Assembly (NCBI GenBank): GCA_009840385.1
Contig: VXNX01000013.1
Coordinates: 634,222-698,221 of the forward strand
Reading direction: 5' to 3'
DNA: 64,000 bases
Source of the DNA: Candidatus Dadabacteria bacterium
Lineage (GTDB): Bacteria; Desulfobacterota_D; UBA1144; Nemesobacterales; Nemesobacteraceae
Part shown: one piece after another, positions 40,202 to 47,482 of the stretch
Layout of the letters: each line of letters begins with the position of its first letter
Position numbering within the stretch: the first letter of the stretch is position 1
Made by a program: the position numbers and the translations under genes
Notes under the pieces: generated by a model
The model's input: the letters and a program-made list of their open reading frames with translations, nothing else
Databases searched by the model: none
Told to the model about the DNA's origin: nothing

Positions 40202-43200
40202 ATGGTGGAACATAAACGGCTTGTCTGTCGGGCAGAGCGCCAGCGGGAATCCCTCTCGTCCTTGCATCGCAATGAGAGAGCGGCTGAGCCAATCCCGAAA
40301 CGGGCGAGTTTCCAGATCAAGGTTCTTGGAACCTTATTTTTCCTCTTCTGTCTGAGGGGACTGCGTGCTGTATGTCCCTTATCCCTTTTCACCGTCAGGA
40401 AAAGAGTAACCCTGAGAAGCGGGGTCTGTCTCCTGCTGTTTGTGTACATGCTGTCGATGTTTTTCTCCGTAGCCGCGCATGCCCAAACTCTTGGATTCGC
40501 CACAGATAGCTATAAGGTGACGGATACCACGGAGAAAATTATCCGGGGAAGGCTTGAATACAGTAATGGTCAAGGAGTATGCGACGATTACTTCACGGAT
40601 GAAGACGCAATGGTTGCGTGCGCGGAGTTGGGGCATATACGTAGTGAGGGGAGAGCGCTGACAAGATTGCGTAGCGCTGGCAATGACGACTTCCGGTTGG
40701 ATGACTTGTTGTGTGACGGCAGTGAAGCAAGTCTTGGTGATTGTAGTAGAAGCGATGATGGAAATCCCGGTGACCACAATTGCCGGGACACCGAGCATAC
40801 GGGTGTTGTCTGTCATACAGAAGTCGTCAAACCAAAAGCACCGGAGCTAAGTGCGGCCCCCGACCCGGAAGATGAAGACACGGCAATACTGTCCTGGACT
40901 GCTCCAAGGATCGAATTCACGGGCCACGGCATTAATTACATAGAATCCATAGTTGACAGATATCAACTCCAGATATCGGAGGATGGCAATACGGGCTGGA
41001 CGGATGTTTCCACCGGTATTAGATCCACAAGAAGAGAGTTTCTTCATAGAGGTCTTTCCTCCGGAACGTGGTATTACAGGATCAGGGCTGTCAACACCGC
41101 GGGTAACGGCCCGTATTCGAACGTGGCCGAAGTTACTCTTGGAGGGAATGGGAGCCCCGTATTTTCCGAAGGAACTTCTGCCACCCGTTCTGTAGCGGAA
41201 AACACCGTGGCGGGAGAAAACATCGGTGGTCCGGTCGAGGCTGCGGGTTCAGAAAGCTACTTGCTTGGCGGCACGGATGCGAACTCGTTCGATATTGATG
41301 GAACTACCGGGCAGCTGAAGACAAAGGCGGCGCTTGACTATGAGGACAAGAATTCTTATTCAGTTACGGTTACCGCCCAGCATAACGGGAGTGCGACCTC
41401 AATAGATGTGGCAATTTCGGTTACCAACGTGGATGAACCGGGAGTGGTAATTTTTTCTTATCCGTCACCGTTTCAGGTGAATGAGATCGTGACTGCGACT
41501 TTGAGCGATCCTGACGGTTCCGCTTCAGGCGTCACGTGGGAGTGGGAGAGGTCATTGAGCCAGAACAGCGGTTGGACTTCAATCACCGAGACCACGGACG
41601 CGAGCCACGATCTGGTTGTAGCCGACGAAGACCATTATCTGAGAGCAACGGCGACCTATACGGACGCTGTTTTTGGTTCCGGCAAGACTGCGCGGGCGAT
41701 CTCCAACAAGGTGCCGAATCTTAACTGGCCGCCCATGTTTGATGAAAGTGATCCCGCCACGCGTTCCGTTGCTGAGAATACCACCGCCGGAGAAAACATC
41801 GGTGCCCGAGTTACGGCTATGGATCCGGAAAGCGACACGCTTATCTATTCGCTCGGAGGTACGGACGCGAATTCATTTGATATTGACAGTTCGACAGGGC
41901 AGATAAAAACCAAGAATCCGCTTGATTTCGAGACCAAAAACTCTTACTCGGTTACTGTCATTGCCAGGGACCGGCCCGTGGGCGCCGCAGACCTCCAGAG
42001 TGATACGATCACAGTGACCATCGGCGTAACCGACGAAGAGGAGGAAGGGACAATAACCCTCTCTTCTGTGCAGCCGCAGGTAGACGCGCTGTTGACTGCG
42101 GCTTTAAGAGACCCGGACGGTGACGTATTGGCCGTCACGTGGACTTGGGAGAAATCAACAAGCCGGAATAATGGCTGGACTGTCATAAGCGGTGCCACGG
42201 GATCAGGCTACACGCCTGTTGACGACGACGTGGATAATTACCTGCGTGTGAAGGCAGACTATACGGACCGGCGCGGTTCCGGGAAAATGGCGCACGTAAT
42301 TTCCGACCTTGTGGTGCGTGTCGAGCCGCCGTCAAACAACGCGCCTACGTTCTCCGCTCCCACGGCCACGCGTTCCGTTCCTGAGAACACCCCGCCCGGA
42401 AGGAACGTCGGCGCGCCGGTAACCGCGATGGATCAGGATAACGATCCGCTTACCTATTCGCTTGGAGGTGCTGACGCAGCTTCGTTTGCCCTGGCCGATC
42501 CAACTTCAGGACAGATAAAAACCAAGGCACCTCTTGACTACGAGACCAAGAGATCTTACTCGGTCGAGATTACTGTGAATGACCCTTCCCTGGAGAGCGC
42601 TACCATCGCGGTAACCATCAACGTGACCAATGTGACCGAATCGCCTTCAAGCACGAAAACGCCTGACCCCGGGGTAACGCCGAACACACCGAACACACCG
42701 AACAAGCCGAACAAGCCAAACACACCGAAAGCGACGGTTCCAAGCGCTCCCGGAAATCTCATGGCGGCTGGGGGCGACGGAGAGGTGACGCTTAGCTGGA
42801 GGACCCCGAATGACGGCGGAAGCGTCATCAAGTACTACGAATACATGATTGATGACATCCAGTGGATCTCGACCAAAAGAAAATCCACTACCCACACCAT
42901 AACCGGGCTTATCAACGGTGAGACCTATAAATTCAAGGTGCGTGCGGTGAACAGCATCGGTCCCGGCCCTGAGTCTAGGCCGGTAAGAGCCACGCCTGCC
43001 ACCGCGCCTGGCGCCCCGCAGAATCTGACGGCGGTTCCGGGCGATGAGCGCGTGACGCTCATGTGGGAGCGACCCGTAGATAACGGCGGTCTTCCGATCA
43101 CCAGTTACGAGTACAGCCAGAAGGAAGAGGGTGGCTCGTTTGGCAACTGGATATCCATAGATAACAGCGGTCCCATGGAGACAAATGAAACCAGCTACGT

Positions 43201-44866
43201 GGTCACGGGTCTTAAAAACGGCACTGTCTACTCCTTCAGGGTGCGCGCGGTGAACGTAGTAGGTCCGGGAGATGCTTCAGCCGAGGCCACGGCCGAGACG
43301 AGCGCTTCTGCCTTTCGGCGGCTAAGACGTGTCAGCATCAGTATTCTTCCCGAGTTCGGGAGGACTATGACGAGGAATTCGCTTGATGCGCTTACGTGGC
43401 GTCTTGACAGCGTGCTTTCGGGGTCTTTTGAGCGCACAGGGATGTTCAGGCTCATGGATCAGCGCGCGGGGCTCCACGATGTCATTGGAATTGATATGTG
43501 GGATGATCCGGAACTGTTGGAAGAGCTCAGCCTCGAGGAACTGCTCTACGGGTCTTCATTCATAATCAAGGCCGGAGGGATGCCTAGGAAACCGAAGCAA
43601 TATCCAAAAGAACGGCCCAAAGAAGCTCCCGGAAAGCATACTCGGGAACATTCAAAAGAATTACCGAAAGAATTACGGAGGGAATATCCCGGGGATGAAA
43701 ATATGTGGATTGAAGAGGATGGGAAACCGGAGCTCATAGAGAGGCAGGGGGATATAGCGTTCTGGGGCAAGGCGGACTACAGTGCCCTTTCGGTCGGGAG
43801 AAGCGGCGAAAGTCTGAACTGGGACGGTAGCGTAGCAAGCGGCTATCTCGGGGTCGACAGGCGGTTAACCGAGAGCGTGCTGATGGGACTTTCCGTCGCT
43901 TTGACGAAGGGAGATTTCGATTACACGGACTCCACCCCGGGAGAGGGAGGAAGTGGAGATTACTATGTAAGGATGCTTAGCGTGGCTCCGTACGTTGCGT
44001 GGCTTATATCCGAAGACGCTTACCTCTGGGGTGCGATTGGCTACGGTCGCGGGGAAATAGAGATAGACGACGAAGAAGTTCAGAGCGTCGCTTCAAGCGA
44101 CCTCAGCTACAAGTCGGCGGCCGCGGGAGGAAGCGGCAGGGTGTTTGACGTGGGAGACACCACCTTCTCGCTTAAGGGCGAAGCGTTTAAGGTATGGATG
44201 GATGTTGAGGGCGACGACTACCTGATCGATGACTCCTCCGTGGGAGTACACCAGCTGCGGTTGAGCATGGAGGGAAGCTATGAGTACAGGTTTGCGTCCG
44301 GAACTTGGCTCAATCCCCTTGTGGAAGTTGCGCTTCGCCATGACGGGGGAGACGGAGAGACGGGCACCGGGGTTGAAATCGGAGGCGGGTTCCTTTTCGA
44401 GGATCCGAATATGGGCCTGAGTATTTCCGGAAGGGGGCGCTGGCTGGCGACCCACAGCTCAGATAAGTTCAGCCAGTGGGGCGTGGGGGGAGCGATAATC
44501 CTTGATACGGGAGCGGACAAGCGGGGAGCGCTGTTCAGCGTGGCTCCGGGGTGGGGAGAGACTTCAAGCGGGATTGAGAATCTCTGGGAGCGCGGAGTTA
44601 AAGGACTCTCGTCAGAAGACGGCAGGAACAGCGATATGCACCTTGACGCGGAGTTCGGATACGGACTCTCGGCTCTCGGCGGAGACGGGCTCCTTACTCC
44701 TTACAGCGGCCTCAGGGTTAGAGGAGACGGGTGGCGACAGTACCGCCTCGGCAGTCGTCTGGACCTCGGGCATTCTGCAAGCCTGAGCCTTGAAACCGAG
44801 CGCAGGCAGAGCGACGCGAAGAAACCCGAGCACGGAGTCATGCTGAGAGGAAAGCTTAATTTCTGA
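40202..44866 (+). CDS. Giant predicted autotransporter adhesin with SRCR, FN3 and cadherin-like domains
   Basis: A 1554-residue surface protein. A long N-terminal extension ends in a signal peptide (about residues 70-94, AHA|QT). An SRCR domain (about 112-205) has six cysteines at 127, 140, 171, 181, 194 and 204. FN3 follows (211-315). Three cadherin-like repeats (about 318-412, 512-612, 714-812; motif ATRSVxENTxxGxNxG) alternate with two W-x-W Ig-like modules. A Pro/Asn linker (826-843), two more FN3 modules (846-1033), a charged linker and a C-terminal barrel (about 1185-1554) with final Phe complete it. The barrel fits type V export of the passenger. SRCR domains are best known in animals. 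ATG 40202 is the first possible start and could be too early. Ligand unknown. Confidence 0.88.
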   Translation: MVEHKRLVCRAERQRESLSSLHRNERAAEPIPKRASFQIKVLGTLFFLFCLRGLRAVCPLSLFTVRKRVTLRSGVCLLLFVYMLSMFFSVAAHAQTLGFATDSYKVTDTTEKIIRGRLEYSNGQGVCDDYFTDEDAMVACAELGHIRSEGRALTRLRSAGNDDFRLDDLLCDGSEASLGDCSRSDDGNPGDHNCRDTEHTGVVCHTEVVKPKAPELSAAPDPEDEDTAILSWTAPRIEFTGHGINYIESIVDRYQLQISEDGNTGWTDVSTGIRSTRREFLHRGLSSGTWYYRIRAVNTAGNGPYSNVAEVTLGGNGSPVFSEGTSATRSVAENTVAGENIGGPVEAAGSESYLLGGTDANSFDIDGTTGQLKTKAALDYEDKNSYSVTVTAQHNGSATSIDVAISVTNVDEPGVVIFSYPSPFQVNEIVTATLSDPDGSASGVTWEWERSLSQNSGWTSITETTDASHDLVVADEDHYLRATATYTDAVFGSGKTARAISNKVPNLNWPPMFDESDPATRSVAENTTAGENIGARVTAMDPESDTLIYSLGGTDANSFDIDSSTGQIKTKNPLDFETKNSYSVTVIARDRPVGAADLQSDTITVTIGVTDEEEEGTITLSSVQPQVDALLTAALRDPDGDVLAVTWTWEKSTSRNNGWTVISGATGSGYTPVDDDVDNYLRVKADYTDRRGSGKMAHVISDLVVRVEPPSNNAPTFSAPTATRSVPENTPPGRNVGAPVTAMDQDNDPLTYSLGGADAASFALADPTSGQIKTKAPLDYETKRSYSVEITVNDPSLESATIAVTINVTNVTESPSSTKTPDPGVTPNTPNTPNKPNKPNTPKATVPSAPGNLMAAGGDGEVTLSWRTPNDGGSVIKYYEYMIDDIQWISTKRKSTTHTITGLINGETYKFKVRAVNSIGPGPESRPVRATPATAPGAPQNLTAVPGDERVTLMWERPVDNGGLPITSYEYSQKEEGGSFGNWISIDNSGPMETNETSYVVTGLKNGTVYSFRVRAVNVVGPGDASAEATAETSASAFRRLRRVSISILPEFGRTMTRNSLDALTWRLDSVLSGSFERTGMFRLMDQRAGLHDVIGIDMWDDPELLEELSLEELLYGSSFIIKAGGMPRKPKQYPKERPKEAPGKHTREHSKELPKELRREYPGDENMWIEEDGKPELIERQGDIAFWGKADYSALSVGRSGESLNWDGSVASGYLGVDRRLTESVLMGLSVALTKGDFDYTDSTPGEGGSGDYYVRMLSVAPYVAWLISEDAYLWGAIGYGRGEIEIDDEEVQSVASSDLSYKSAAAGGSGRVFDVGDTTFSLKGEAFKVWMDVEGDDYLIDDSSVGVHQLRLSMEGSYEYRFASGTWLNPLVEVALRHDGGDGETGTGVEIGGGFLFEDPNMGLSISGRGRWLATHSSDKFSQWGVGGAIILDTGADKRGALFSVAPGWGETSSGIENLWERGVKGLSSEDGRNSDMHLDAEFGYGLSALGGDGLLTPYSGLRVRGDGWRQYRLGSRLDLGHSASLSLETERRQSDAKKPEHGVMLRGKLNF

Positions 44867-44951: not shown

Positions 44952-46799
44952 CTACAGCCAGTCGTCTTCAAACGTATCGGCCGGGCGCTGGTGGAAAGCT
45001 CCCGTGTCCAGACTGTTTTTAAAACCCCGGAACTTAAGCAGTCCCGAGATCGCGGGTTTTATCTGGCTTCTTTCGACCACCAGGTGAACCCCTCCGTGTT
45101 CTTCGTAGAATTCAGAGGACATTATTTTCGGGTCGACCCCGCGGCCGCCGCTTGTGAGCTTCACAACGCGGTCCCCGGCAAAAGCTATGGTCGCTTTCTT
45201 CTCCGATATCAGGAAGTCTCCCTGCACAGCGTAGCTCGCAAGCGCTCCTCCCGTTGTCGGGTGGCCGAGTATGGAGATGTTCGGAAGCCCGTGCTCCTTG
45301 AGCCTCATTATCGCGGATATGGTCTTCGCCATCTGGTAGAGCGCCACGGTCCCTTCCTGCATCCGGGCGCCTCCGCTTACTGTTATCGTTACCAGGGGGA
45401 GCTTGTGTTCTATGGCGTAGCTCACCACTATGTTCATCTTCTCACCGAAAACGGAGCTCATTGACCCGCCCATGAACCTGAAATCGCAGACCGCCACCGC
45501 GACGGGTATGCCGAACATGGTCCCGTAGCCCGTTACCAGGGAATCTTTCGAGTCGGTCTTTCCGGCGAGCTTCTGTCTCGAGGACGAATAGTTAAAGAAC
45601 TTGTAGACGGAATCCACGTCTTCAAGAGAGAGGCCGGGTTCTATTTCGTGAAAAGACGCCTCGTCGAGGAGAAAGTCAAGGTAGTCGTCCGAGCTCAGCG
45701 CTTCAGGGCGGTTGCAGTAAGGACACGAGGAATTGTTCGCATGAAGCTCTTTTTTCGTGAGCTGCTTTTTGCAACCGGGGCGTATGATTTTTCCCTGCCC
45801 GTCCTTTTCGTCGTTGCAGAAATGGGGTTCCGATCCGTAGATGGCTATCTGCATCTCTTCGATGTCGGGATTTTCCTTTCTTCCGCTGAAATAGTTGGGA
45901 AGCCAGGCCTTTATTTTCTTTGAGATTCCTTCGTAGATTCTTTGCTGTTTTTTCACGCGCCCGCAGCGCTCGATTTTCCTTCGAAGCTCCTCGCGCAGGT
46001 GCCTTACGTCGTAGCGGTCAAGCTCCTTTGAAGCGGCTGAGAGAGACGCCTGCAGGTTTTTCAGGGTCGCGGGGATGTAATTGCTTTTTCCAAGAGGGGC
46101 CTCTTTCACCACTTCGTCTATTATTCCGTATTTCTTCATGTGAGTCGCGGTGGGCTGAAGCACCTCGAGGGCTTCTGCGACCTTGTCCGCGCTTCTGAAG
46201 AGAATGGCGGAGCAGCCCTCGGCGGTTATCACGGAGTATTCGGCTCGCGAGAGCATAAGTCTTTTGTGTCCGAGCTGTATGGCGATTGCGCCCCCGCTTC
46301 CCCCGAGTCCGAGCACGGTGGTTATCGTTTTCGTTCTTATGGAGATCATTTTCGACTGGCAGTAGGAAATCAGCCAGGACTGAAGTTTTTCGGCCGAGTA
46401 CTCGTAGGGATCTCCTCCTATGGTATCAATGAACGTGAAGAGCTTGAGGCGGTTCTGTTCCGCATACTCCATCATGCATAAAGACAGTCCGTAACCGTCT
46501 GCCTTTACCATTCCGAAGTTAAGTGTTGTTCTTTCCTTTTCGCTGGAAGGGGTCTGCTGGGCTATTACGGCCACTTCCTCTCCCGTGCCCTTGAACACTG
46601 CGGTGCCTACTATGACGGCGGGATCGTTAACGAATTCGATCTTCTTGCCCGAGGGGGCGTGGATGAAGTTTCTGAACCCGTGGAGCTTGTTCCAGGGAGT
46701 AAAGTCGGTGAAGAGAGTTCCGATCAGGTGCTTTGACTTGATCCTGTCGTAGCTCTTTGCCTCCTCGTGGGCCCGAAGTATTTTTGCCGTTGATGCCAT
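44952..46799 (-). CDS. Fused acetyl-CoA carboxylase carboxyltransferase (AccA-AccD single chain)
   Basis: A 615-residue protein joining both carboxyltransferase subunits that make malonyl-CoA from carboxybiotin and acetyl-CoA. Residues 1 to about 265 are AccA-like (LGLGGSGGAIAIQLG, SVITAEGCSAIL). A helical linker leads to an AccD-like half with zinc ligands Cys328, 343, 359 and 362, and VCDFRFMGGSMSSVFGEK, SGGARMQEG and DPTTGG-like HPTTGGALASYAVQGD. In most bacteria accA and accD are separate genes. The zinc ribbon spacing (15, 16, 3) is longer than usual. It stands alone, with no accB/accC near. Confidence 0.9.
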   Translation of the reverse strand: MASTAKILRAHEEAKSYDRIKSKHLIGTLFTDFTPWNKLHGFRNFIHAPSGKKIEFVNDPAVIVGTAVFKGTGEEVAVIAQQTPSSEKERTTLNFGMVKADGYGLSLCMMEYAEQNRLKLFTFIDTIGGDPYEYSAEKLQSWLISYCQSKMISIRTKTITTVLGLGGSGGAIAIQLGHKRLMLSRAEYSVITAEGCSAILFRSADKVAEALEVLQPTATHMKKYGIIDEVVKEAPLGKSNYIPATLKNLQASLSAASKELDRYDVRHLREELRRKIERCGRVKKQQRIYEGISKKIKAWLPNYFSGRKENPDIEEMQIAIYGSEPHFCNDEKDGQGKIIRPGCKKQLTKKELHANNSSCPYCNRPEALSSDDYLDFLLDEASFHEIEPGLSLEDVDSVYKFFNYSSSRQKLAGKTDSKDSLVTGYGTMFGIPVAVAVCDFRFMGGSMSSVFGEKMNIVVSYAIEHKLPLVTITVSGGARMQEGTVALYQMAKTISAIMRLKEHGLPNISILGHPTTGGALASYAVQGDFLISEKKATIAFAGDRVVKLTSGGRGVDPKIMSSEFYEEHGGVHLVVERSQIKPAISGLLKFRGFKNSLDTGAFHQRPADTFEDDWL

Positions 46800-47016
46800 G
46801 GTGTATTTTGCGGCGACCGCTCCACGGACCCGCCATATATAAGTATATAATTAAATCTGTTTGTGGGAAAAGGAATCTGTTCTCCAGAAAACCGCGAACT
46901 GCCTCCCACTATACCAACCCGCCTGTGCCCAACGAATCCTCCGCGCGAAGAATCGTCGCAAGATTCGTCCAGGGTTTTGTTATGGGGAAAATCTAGATAT
47001 ACGGGTTTCTGCTTTT

Positions 47017-47340
47017 TTATGCGTTGAAAGACTGTCCGCAGCCGCAGGAACCGGTCGCGTTCGGATTTTCGATCGCAAAGCCCTTTCCCTCAAGACCGTC
47101 CTTGAAATCAAGGACTGCCCCGTCAAGATAGGTATAGCTGAGCTCGTCGATGGCGACCTTTATGCCGTCGGATTCAATCAAGTTATCTCCTTCTTCGGTC
47201 TCGTCGTCAAATCCCATCTCGTAGGAGAATCCGGAACAGCCGCCGGGTACTATCCTCACCCGGAGAAACGCTTCCTCGATATCATCTTCGGCAAGCAGCC
47301 TTTTTATTTCATCTACGGCTTTGGGAGTTACGGAAAACAT
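47017..47340 (-). CDS. HesB/IscA-type iron-sulfur carrier (ErpA-like)
   Basis: A 107-residue A-type carrier that hands Fe-S clusters to apoproteins. The conserved cysteines are all present: VRIVPGGCSGFSYEMGF (first Cys, about residue 35) and GSCGCGQSF (C-terminal pair, about residues 100 and 102). DFKDGLEGKGFAIENPNA is the family signature. ATG 47340 has an AGGAGGCAGAGG site; the longer frame to 47448 adds 36 unrelated residues. It is divergent from the M24 peptidase gene. Confidence 0.94.
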   Translation of the reverse strand: MFSVTPKAVDEIKRLLAEDDIEEAFLRVRIVPGGCSGFSYEMGFDDETEEGDNLIESDGIKVAIDELSYTYLDGAVLDFKDGLEGKGFAIENPNATGSCGCGQSFNA

Positions 47341-47482
47341 ATTTCCTCTGCCTCCTCGCAGTGTGAATTCTTTTACCACTCCGTCTAACAAAATACATCT
47401 GCCGGGCGCGGTTGTCAAAGCGAAGCCAGCAACGAACCGTTCGGGCATCCCCCGCGGTTTGCCCGTACGCCCTGGTTTGCTG

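Follow-up and report, generated by a model that had tools for sequence, protein, structure and literature searches.

Does this bacterium carry the two carboxyltransferase (CT) subunits of acetyl-CoA carboxylase, AccA and AccD, in one polypeptide chain, and what would such a chain do in the cell? The question is raised by a long reading frame in a stretch of 64,000 nucleotides from a Candidatus Dadabacteria genome (the window), which an earlier note had described as an AccA–AccD fusion. The fusion is a real, conserved and lineage-specific variant of a well-known enzyme.

One open frame encodes AccA and AccD

The gene is read on the minus strand as one open frame, from its start at 46799 to 44952; the plus strand contains stops in the same frame. 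The coordinates and the single chain of 615 residues given in the earlier note are borne out, and the strand, which that note did not state, is added here as minus.

44952..46799, minus strand: accAD fusion gene, predicted 615-aa single-chain acetyl-CoA carboxylase carboxyltransferase
45963..46760, minus strand: alpha (AccA) domain, residues 14-279 (PF03255, 6.1e-52)
45033..45779, minus strand: beta (AccD) domain, residues 341-589 (TIGR00515, 8.7e-67)

Both the AccA core and the AccD core domains are present in the chain, and the Pfam and NCBIfam matches place AccA (14-279) ahead of AccD (341-589), in line with the alpha-then-beta order proposed before. The PF03255 (ACCA) match spans profile positions 60-309 of 310 with 177 bits against a cut-off of 23, and AccA_sub matches residues 13-277 at 2.3e-51, under its NCBIfam cut-off. 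In the beta half, TIGR00515 (accD) is matched over profile positions 30-277 of 285, and the Pfam profile PF01039 (Carboxyl_trans) at 5.2e-27, with its best stretch at 401-556. The NCBIfam equivalog cut-offs are reached by neither half (TIGR00513 accA, 141 versus 319; TIGR00515, 225 bits versus 317), and that of TIGR00515 is exceeded in 0/57 genomes of the class versus 6/14 controls. The alpha half also matches solved AccA chains and the beta half solved AccD chains (8uxz, 2f9y, 2f9i and 9m70), the first three of which we take, from their PDB codes, to be E. coli and S. aureus entries. Pfam finds no biotin carboxylase (BC) or biotinyl domain within the 615 residues. A biotin-independent malonate decarboxylase (MdcD/MdcE) was considered and rejected on NCBIfam scores: 58 bits for malonate_beta versus 225 for accD, and 20 for malonate_gamma versus 175 for the alpha profile.

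Catalytic motifs, zinc ribbon, alpha loop and linker

Five elements of the chain were located:

46374..46427, minus strand: alpha-half loop, residues 125-142, DTIGGDPYEYSAEKLQSW
46287..46304, minus strand: alpha glycine motif GGSGGA, residues 166-171
45852..45962, minus strand: inter-domain linker, residues 280-316
45714..45818, minus strand: extended zinc ribbon, residues 328-362, C-x14-C-x15-C-x2-C, beginning CNDEKD
45351..45377, minus strand: beta motif SGGARMQEG, residues 475-483

They were compared over 39 fusion frames, from 30 genome-search loci and 9 of 23 named loci; the two sets overlap and contain 32 distinct frames. The catalytic motifs are retained in all 39. GGSGGA, which is also invariant in 19 aligned sequences, GGARMQEG and HPTTGG are each kept in 39/39 frames.

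The fusion has a four-cysteine zinc ribbon in which the first pair is spaced by 14 residues, not 2. Its cysteines, C328, C343, C359 and C362, are invariant in an alignment of the window's fusion protein (P0001) with 18 of the 23 named loci, so the extended ribbon claimed earlier can be placed exactly. The C-x14-C-x15-C-x2-C pattern is found in 39/39 frames and a C-x2-C first pair in 0/39; the inserted stretch starts with CNDEKD in every frame. All ten separate AccDs examined from other lineages have C-x2-C-x15-C-x2-C. The Pfam zinc ribbon PF17848 remains below threshold in the fusion (16.2 bits versus 24.5). In E. coli, the zinc-ribbon part has reportedly been proposed to bind mRNA; the changed ribbon of the fusion is a natural variant of this part.

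The loop of the alpha half is changed as well. This loop lies close to biotin in the carboxyltransferase family. In the fusion it is unlike DTPGAYPGVGAEERGQ of the AccA chain of 8uxz: DT.GGDP is present in 39/39 frames and the usual DT.GAYPG in 0/39. At the same position 8uxz and 2f9y have DTPGAYPG, 2f9i has DTKGAYPG and 9m70_B has DTPAADPT; DTPGAYP is the E. coli form.

The linker falls within the least conserved internal stretch of the chain, residues 241-315, where mean identity to P0001 is 37.5% across 27 distant rows; in the same rows the cores reach 71.0% (residues 56-240) and 74.2% (421-590). An AlphaFold2 model built from P0001 and 18 relatives has a mean pLDDT of 50.3 and a pTM of 0.50. 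Helices are predicted at 241-259, where pLDDT lies in the 70s, at 262-278 and at 287-297, and pLDDT is under 50 over nearly all of 262-342. The model thus hints, weakly, that the linker may be helical, as the earlier note had it.

Occurrence of the fusion in the Dadabacteria class

The host assembly has 1,655,437 bases in 14 contigs and is 97.75% complete. Searches of it with the fusion protein, PF03255 and TIGR00515 find no second accA or accD. The sole further match is an open frame of 522 aa of the propionyl-CoA-carboxylase (PCC) type. The earlier note had named separate accA and accD genes, together with lost catalytic residues in the fused chain, as contrary to its reading; neither was found: the host genome yielded no other accA or accD, and the catalytic motifs of the chain are kept.

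A class search and a phylum search each covered 57 genomes from 22 genera, 43 of them in the order of the host. In 36/43 genomes of the order (36/57 of the class), belonging to 14 genera, the two halves share one uninterrupted frame with at least 60% identity, so the same fusion does recur in relatives, as had been suggested. One of these frames, that of G023, runs up to residue 605, where its contig stops. In addition, G015 has a contig-cut fusion (residues 1-393), and G038 only a 47-residue match at a contig edge (555-601, 45%, E 8.1e-8), possibly the last part of a fused chain. A second, partial copy of the C-terminal part of the fusion lies at a contig edge in G033 (C2:148083-149123, L080), 59-61% identical to P0001. 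Among the named loci, the 10 at 87-95% identity are all labelled Candidatus Dadabacteria. The 13 at 59-73% comprise 8 with a Dadabacteria label and 5 that bear the name Deltaproteobacteria or Thermodesulfobacteriota.

Five of the 43 genomes of the order give no match (G001, G002, G008, G013 and G032). Two of these may be gaps, since G013 is 74% complete and the congeners of G032 carry the fusion. It looks truly absent from G001 and G002 (one genus; 92% and 89% complete). Seen by group, genus g3 (2 genomes) and the single genomes of families f3 (88% complete) and f6 (74%) apparently lack the fusion. Moreover, it is found in 0/14 genomes of family f8 (G043-G056, about 0.8-1.1 Mb), which belongs to the same class; the kinship of f8, like the origin of both halves, is read from the kinship labels of the genome searches. 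One f8 genome, G043, has a separate accA (L075) with canonical DTIGAYPG and ERGQ, and an accD fragment at a contig edge (L076). The two pieces sit on short contigs of 5.8 and 6.9 kb, the other 13 f8 genomes have no such accA or accD matches, and the pieces are probably foreign. The fusion marks most of one order of Dadabacteria. As a lineage marker, which the earlier note thought it might be, it holds for 36 of the 43 genomes of that order, but it was not found in 5 others of the order or in any f8 genome.

Known carboxyltransferases and the origin of the fusion

Separate AccA and AccD (2f9y, 8uxz, 2f9i) share both domains and the glycine motifs with the fusion. They differ from it in being two chains, with DTPGAYPG or DTKGAYPG in the alpha loop and a C-x2-C ribbon, whereas the fusion is one chain with DT.GGDP and C-x14-C.

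Single-chain carboxyltransferases are already known, in beta-alpha order and within AccADCB. Like the fusion, proteins annotated accD from Collinsella aerofaciens (574 aa) and Pseudonocardia alni (555 aa) hold both CT domains in a single chain; unlike it, they are in beta-alpha order, with a canonical ribbon and 29-38% identity per half. A search of a plasmid collection returned 409 records. Among the best 15, 14 cover at least 80% of the query, and of the four of these 15 that were examined, H8 and H11 are single-chain beta-alpha proteins; H9, whose one listed feature suggested a fusion, was rejected, its CDS being the beta gene alone; and H3 shows no listed CDS at the match.

AccADCB (9kkm, 1517 aa) resembles the fusion in that the alpha match (126-303) stands ahead of the beta match (738-835) in one chain. 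By name and length, however, AccADCB also includes BC and the biotin carrier BCCP, and its similarity to the fusion is weak (alpha half, E 4.8e-05). The fusion is not of this type, as it has 615 residues and BC and BCCP are separate genes. The PCC beta chain (3n6r and 1vrg; about 520 aa) is of the same superfamily and has a separate homologue in the host genome.

Parts of heteromeric acetyl-CoA carboxylase are described as fused in various combinations in the portions of PMC11077971 consulted, including the Chloroflexus aurantiacus enzyme, in which a single chain joins BC to BCCP but, unlike in the fusion, the CT consists of separate subunits. A multi-domain AccS is described in Shewanella in the consulted part of PMC11602165, with no equivalence to AccADCB of 9kkm implied. 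Among the titles listed from the literature searched, which took in few subscription journals, none is on a Dadabacteria AccA–AccD fusion. The parts seen of PMC8941161, the one paper found to mention both Dadabacteria and acetyl-CoA carboxylase, do not discuss it, and the words fatty acid, carboxylase, malonyl and propionyl do not occur in the main text of the Dadabacteria genome paper PMC8115339.

To look beyond the class, 386 genomes, 329 of them outside it, were searched at E<=1e-60, a threshold chosen just past the best earlier single-half match (2.1e-57). An unbroken alpha-beta chain is present in 0/329 of these; at this threshold the search misses fusions far more distant than ordinary AccA and AccD, such as AccADCB, and does not register the beta-alpha order as one match. 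In the fusion, the two CT halves occur naturally in one chain, and hence at a ratio of 1:1, in an order unseen as an unbroken chain in those 329 genomes at this threshold. The effect on regulation that the earlier note suggested, through mRNA binding or the fixed stoichiometry, is hypothetical. Within these searches, the free-standing two-domain alpha-beta form with a rebuilt ribbon is confined to Dadabacteria and its class. An earlier search at E<=1e-15 over 242 genomes (185 outside the class) had given AccD-half matches only, among the outside matches listed, and a search of the 4 genomes of the phylum of G192 gave no match. Long accD frames in the outgroup (L087, L089, L090, L091 and L094) were not counted as alpha-beta fusions, because they matched the beta half of P0001 alone.

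The sole outside match at E<=1e-60 (G335, C75:15800-18842, L101) has accA and accD adjacent and in frame, with three stops between them. It serves as a positive control, showing that the search picks up alpha and beta halves lying in one frame, and it plausibly represents a pre-fusion, ancestral-type state in another lineage. The fusion itself probably arose from adjacent accA and accD, in that order, through loss of the intervening stop codon, and once formed would have been retained in most of one Dadabacteria order.

Biotin carboxylase, carrier and a second carboxyltransferase

The host genome (G000) contains one accC match at E<=1e-40, which lies in a cluster about 134 kb from the fusion:

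Contig C13, 541.4-545.0 kb of G000 (L073:5440-9000), minus strand: PCC-type CT (520 aa), BC (498 aa) and BCCP (162 aa)

The BC of this cluster scores over the TIGR00514 cut-off. The PCC-type CT has PF01039 over its full length and is without a zinc-ribbon match. About 11 kb beyond the cluster, a pyruvate carboxylase subunit B/OadA-like protein carries its own biotin domain. Across the class, accC is found in 56/57 genomes and BCCP-like matches in 55/57; the TIGR00531 cut-off is passed by 0/57, versus 7/14 controls. fabD is present in 55/57 genomes, from which it follows that malonyl-CoA is needed, and methylmalonyl-CoA-mutase family proteins occur in 57/57.

At C13:195686-203779 the host genome also has an open frame of 3485 aa that gives acyltransferase matches of the fabD kind; its product is likely to be a large synthase for polyketides or fatty acids. 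Similar frames of 3470-3516 aa are found in G016, G018, G021, G022 and G024.

We consider it very probable that the fusion is the one-chain carboxyltransferase of acetyl-CoA carboxylase. Each chain would fold into one AccA-like and one AccD-like domain. In a pair of such chains, every active site would form where an alpha domain meets a beta domain, which is also the arrangement of the enzyme with separate subunits. Carboxybiotin would be bound by the alpha half and acetyl-CoA by the beta half, and the malonyl-CoA formed would enter type II fatty acid synthesis. The only BC that the genome yielded would charge the biotin, and the BCCP of the neighbouring gene would carry it. As this BC adjoins the PCC-type CT, the two CTs probably share it, and most likely share one carrier too; judging from gene content, both CTs, and perhaps the OadA-like enzyme as well, would depend on this one BC. 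An extension of this scheme, which we offer tentatively and regard as doubtful, is that in most of the order the two CTs compete for one BC and one carrier, that the zinc knuckle and the alpha loop have been rebuilt to suit this shared, non-canonical carrier, and that in f8, with its small genomes, the PCC-type enzyme makes the malonyl-CoA.

In a different division of labour, the PCC-type CT would be the housekeeping acetyl-CoA carboxylase, perhaps with activity on propionyl-CoA as well as on acetyl-CoA, and the fused chain would be accessory. This reading gains from the fact that the only BC found and a dedicated BCCP share the cluster of the PCC-type CT. Moreover, the 19 genomes without a fusion match have the PCC-type CT in 19/19 and fabD in 18/19, and in 18/19 a single contig carries the matches to CT, BC and BCCP (in G013, those to CT and BC); this clustering, combined with fabD, supports a supply of malonyl-CoA by the PCC-type enzyme. 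One solved relative, 7w5u, is named acetyl-CoA carboxylase beta-chain (1.5e-185). The best solved relatives are, however, PCC beta chains (3n6r, 8.6e-209; 1vrg, 2.6e-207), the mutase family found throughout the class makes a propionyl-CoA role available, and the fused chain has kept strongly conserved cores (71.0% and 74.2% over 27 distant rows). We therefore think this division unlikely. The Asp of YGGAYDVM, which we take to be the PCC specificity residue (Asp422 of Streptomyces PccB), is identical in five Dadabacteria CTs from lineages with and without the fusion; it was discarded as a specificity indicator, as the solved PCC 3n6r carries Val there.

A fused chain with a changed substrate or biotin partner, and hence a carboxyltransferase of something other than acetyl-CoA carboxylase, would suit the DT.GGDP loop and the extended ribbon, both in 39/39 frames, and the sub-cut-off scores. 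That 0/57 genomes have a BCCP match over the TIGR00531 cut-off points the same way, though only 7/14 controls pass it. Against this, the beta core, which is where known carboxyltransferases hold the CoA substrate, gives a good alignment to AccD chains of known structure, and the solved alpha chain 9m70_B likewise has ADP for AYP in the loop, which makes such a change of role improbable. An assembly or reading artefact joining two genes, in favour of which nothing was found, is so improbable that it can be set aside, because the unbroken frame recurs in 36/57 genomes of the class (14 genera, including the one-contig assemblies G012 and G026) and in 23 named loci, some partial.

Some observations count against the favoured reading of the fusion as the CT of acetyl-CoA carboxylase: both halves score below the NCBIfam cut-offs, and the alpha loop is changed in 39/39 frames. 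The chain is also not indispensable class-wide for fatty acid synthesis: 14 f8 genomes and 5 of the same order have no fusion, and among these 18/19 have fabD and 19/19 the PCC-type CT. In f8, with fabD in 13/14 genomes and the fusion in 0/14, which enzyme supplies malonyl-CoA becomes a testable question. On the tentative extension above, f8 would have dispensed with AccA and AccD entirely, its type II fatty acid synthesis being fed by the PCC-type enzyme. The fusion per se is of modest interest; the changes in ribbon and loop, present in 39/39 frames, and the malonyl-CoA source of the fusion-lacking lineages weigh more.

Neighbourhood of the fusion gene

The gene upstream of the fusion points in the same direction:

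47017..47448, minus strand: HesB/IscA-like iron-sulphur protein gene (PF01521, 4.1e-19)

A homologue of it is near the fusion in 21/23 named loci, several of which are contig-cut; beyond it, an M24 peptidase-like gene is found in 19/23 and MazG in 17/23. The 217-base gap between the two genes (46800-47016) contains a conserved AT-rich TATATA.TTAT stretch, possibly a promoter from its sequence, and is otherwise weakly conserved among nine aligned sequences. No Rfam family reaches its gathering score in the window besides two tRNAs, and we propose no RNA regulator here. On the other side of the fusion, a plus-strand gene (40202-44866) encodes a surface protein of 1554 aa. It combines an autotransporter beta-domain with an SRCR domain and with repeats of the cadherin and fibronectin III types, a domain mix that is animal-like.
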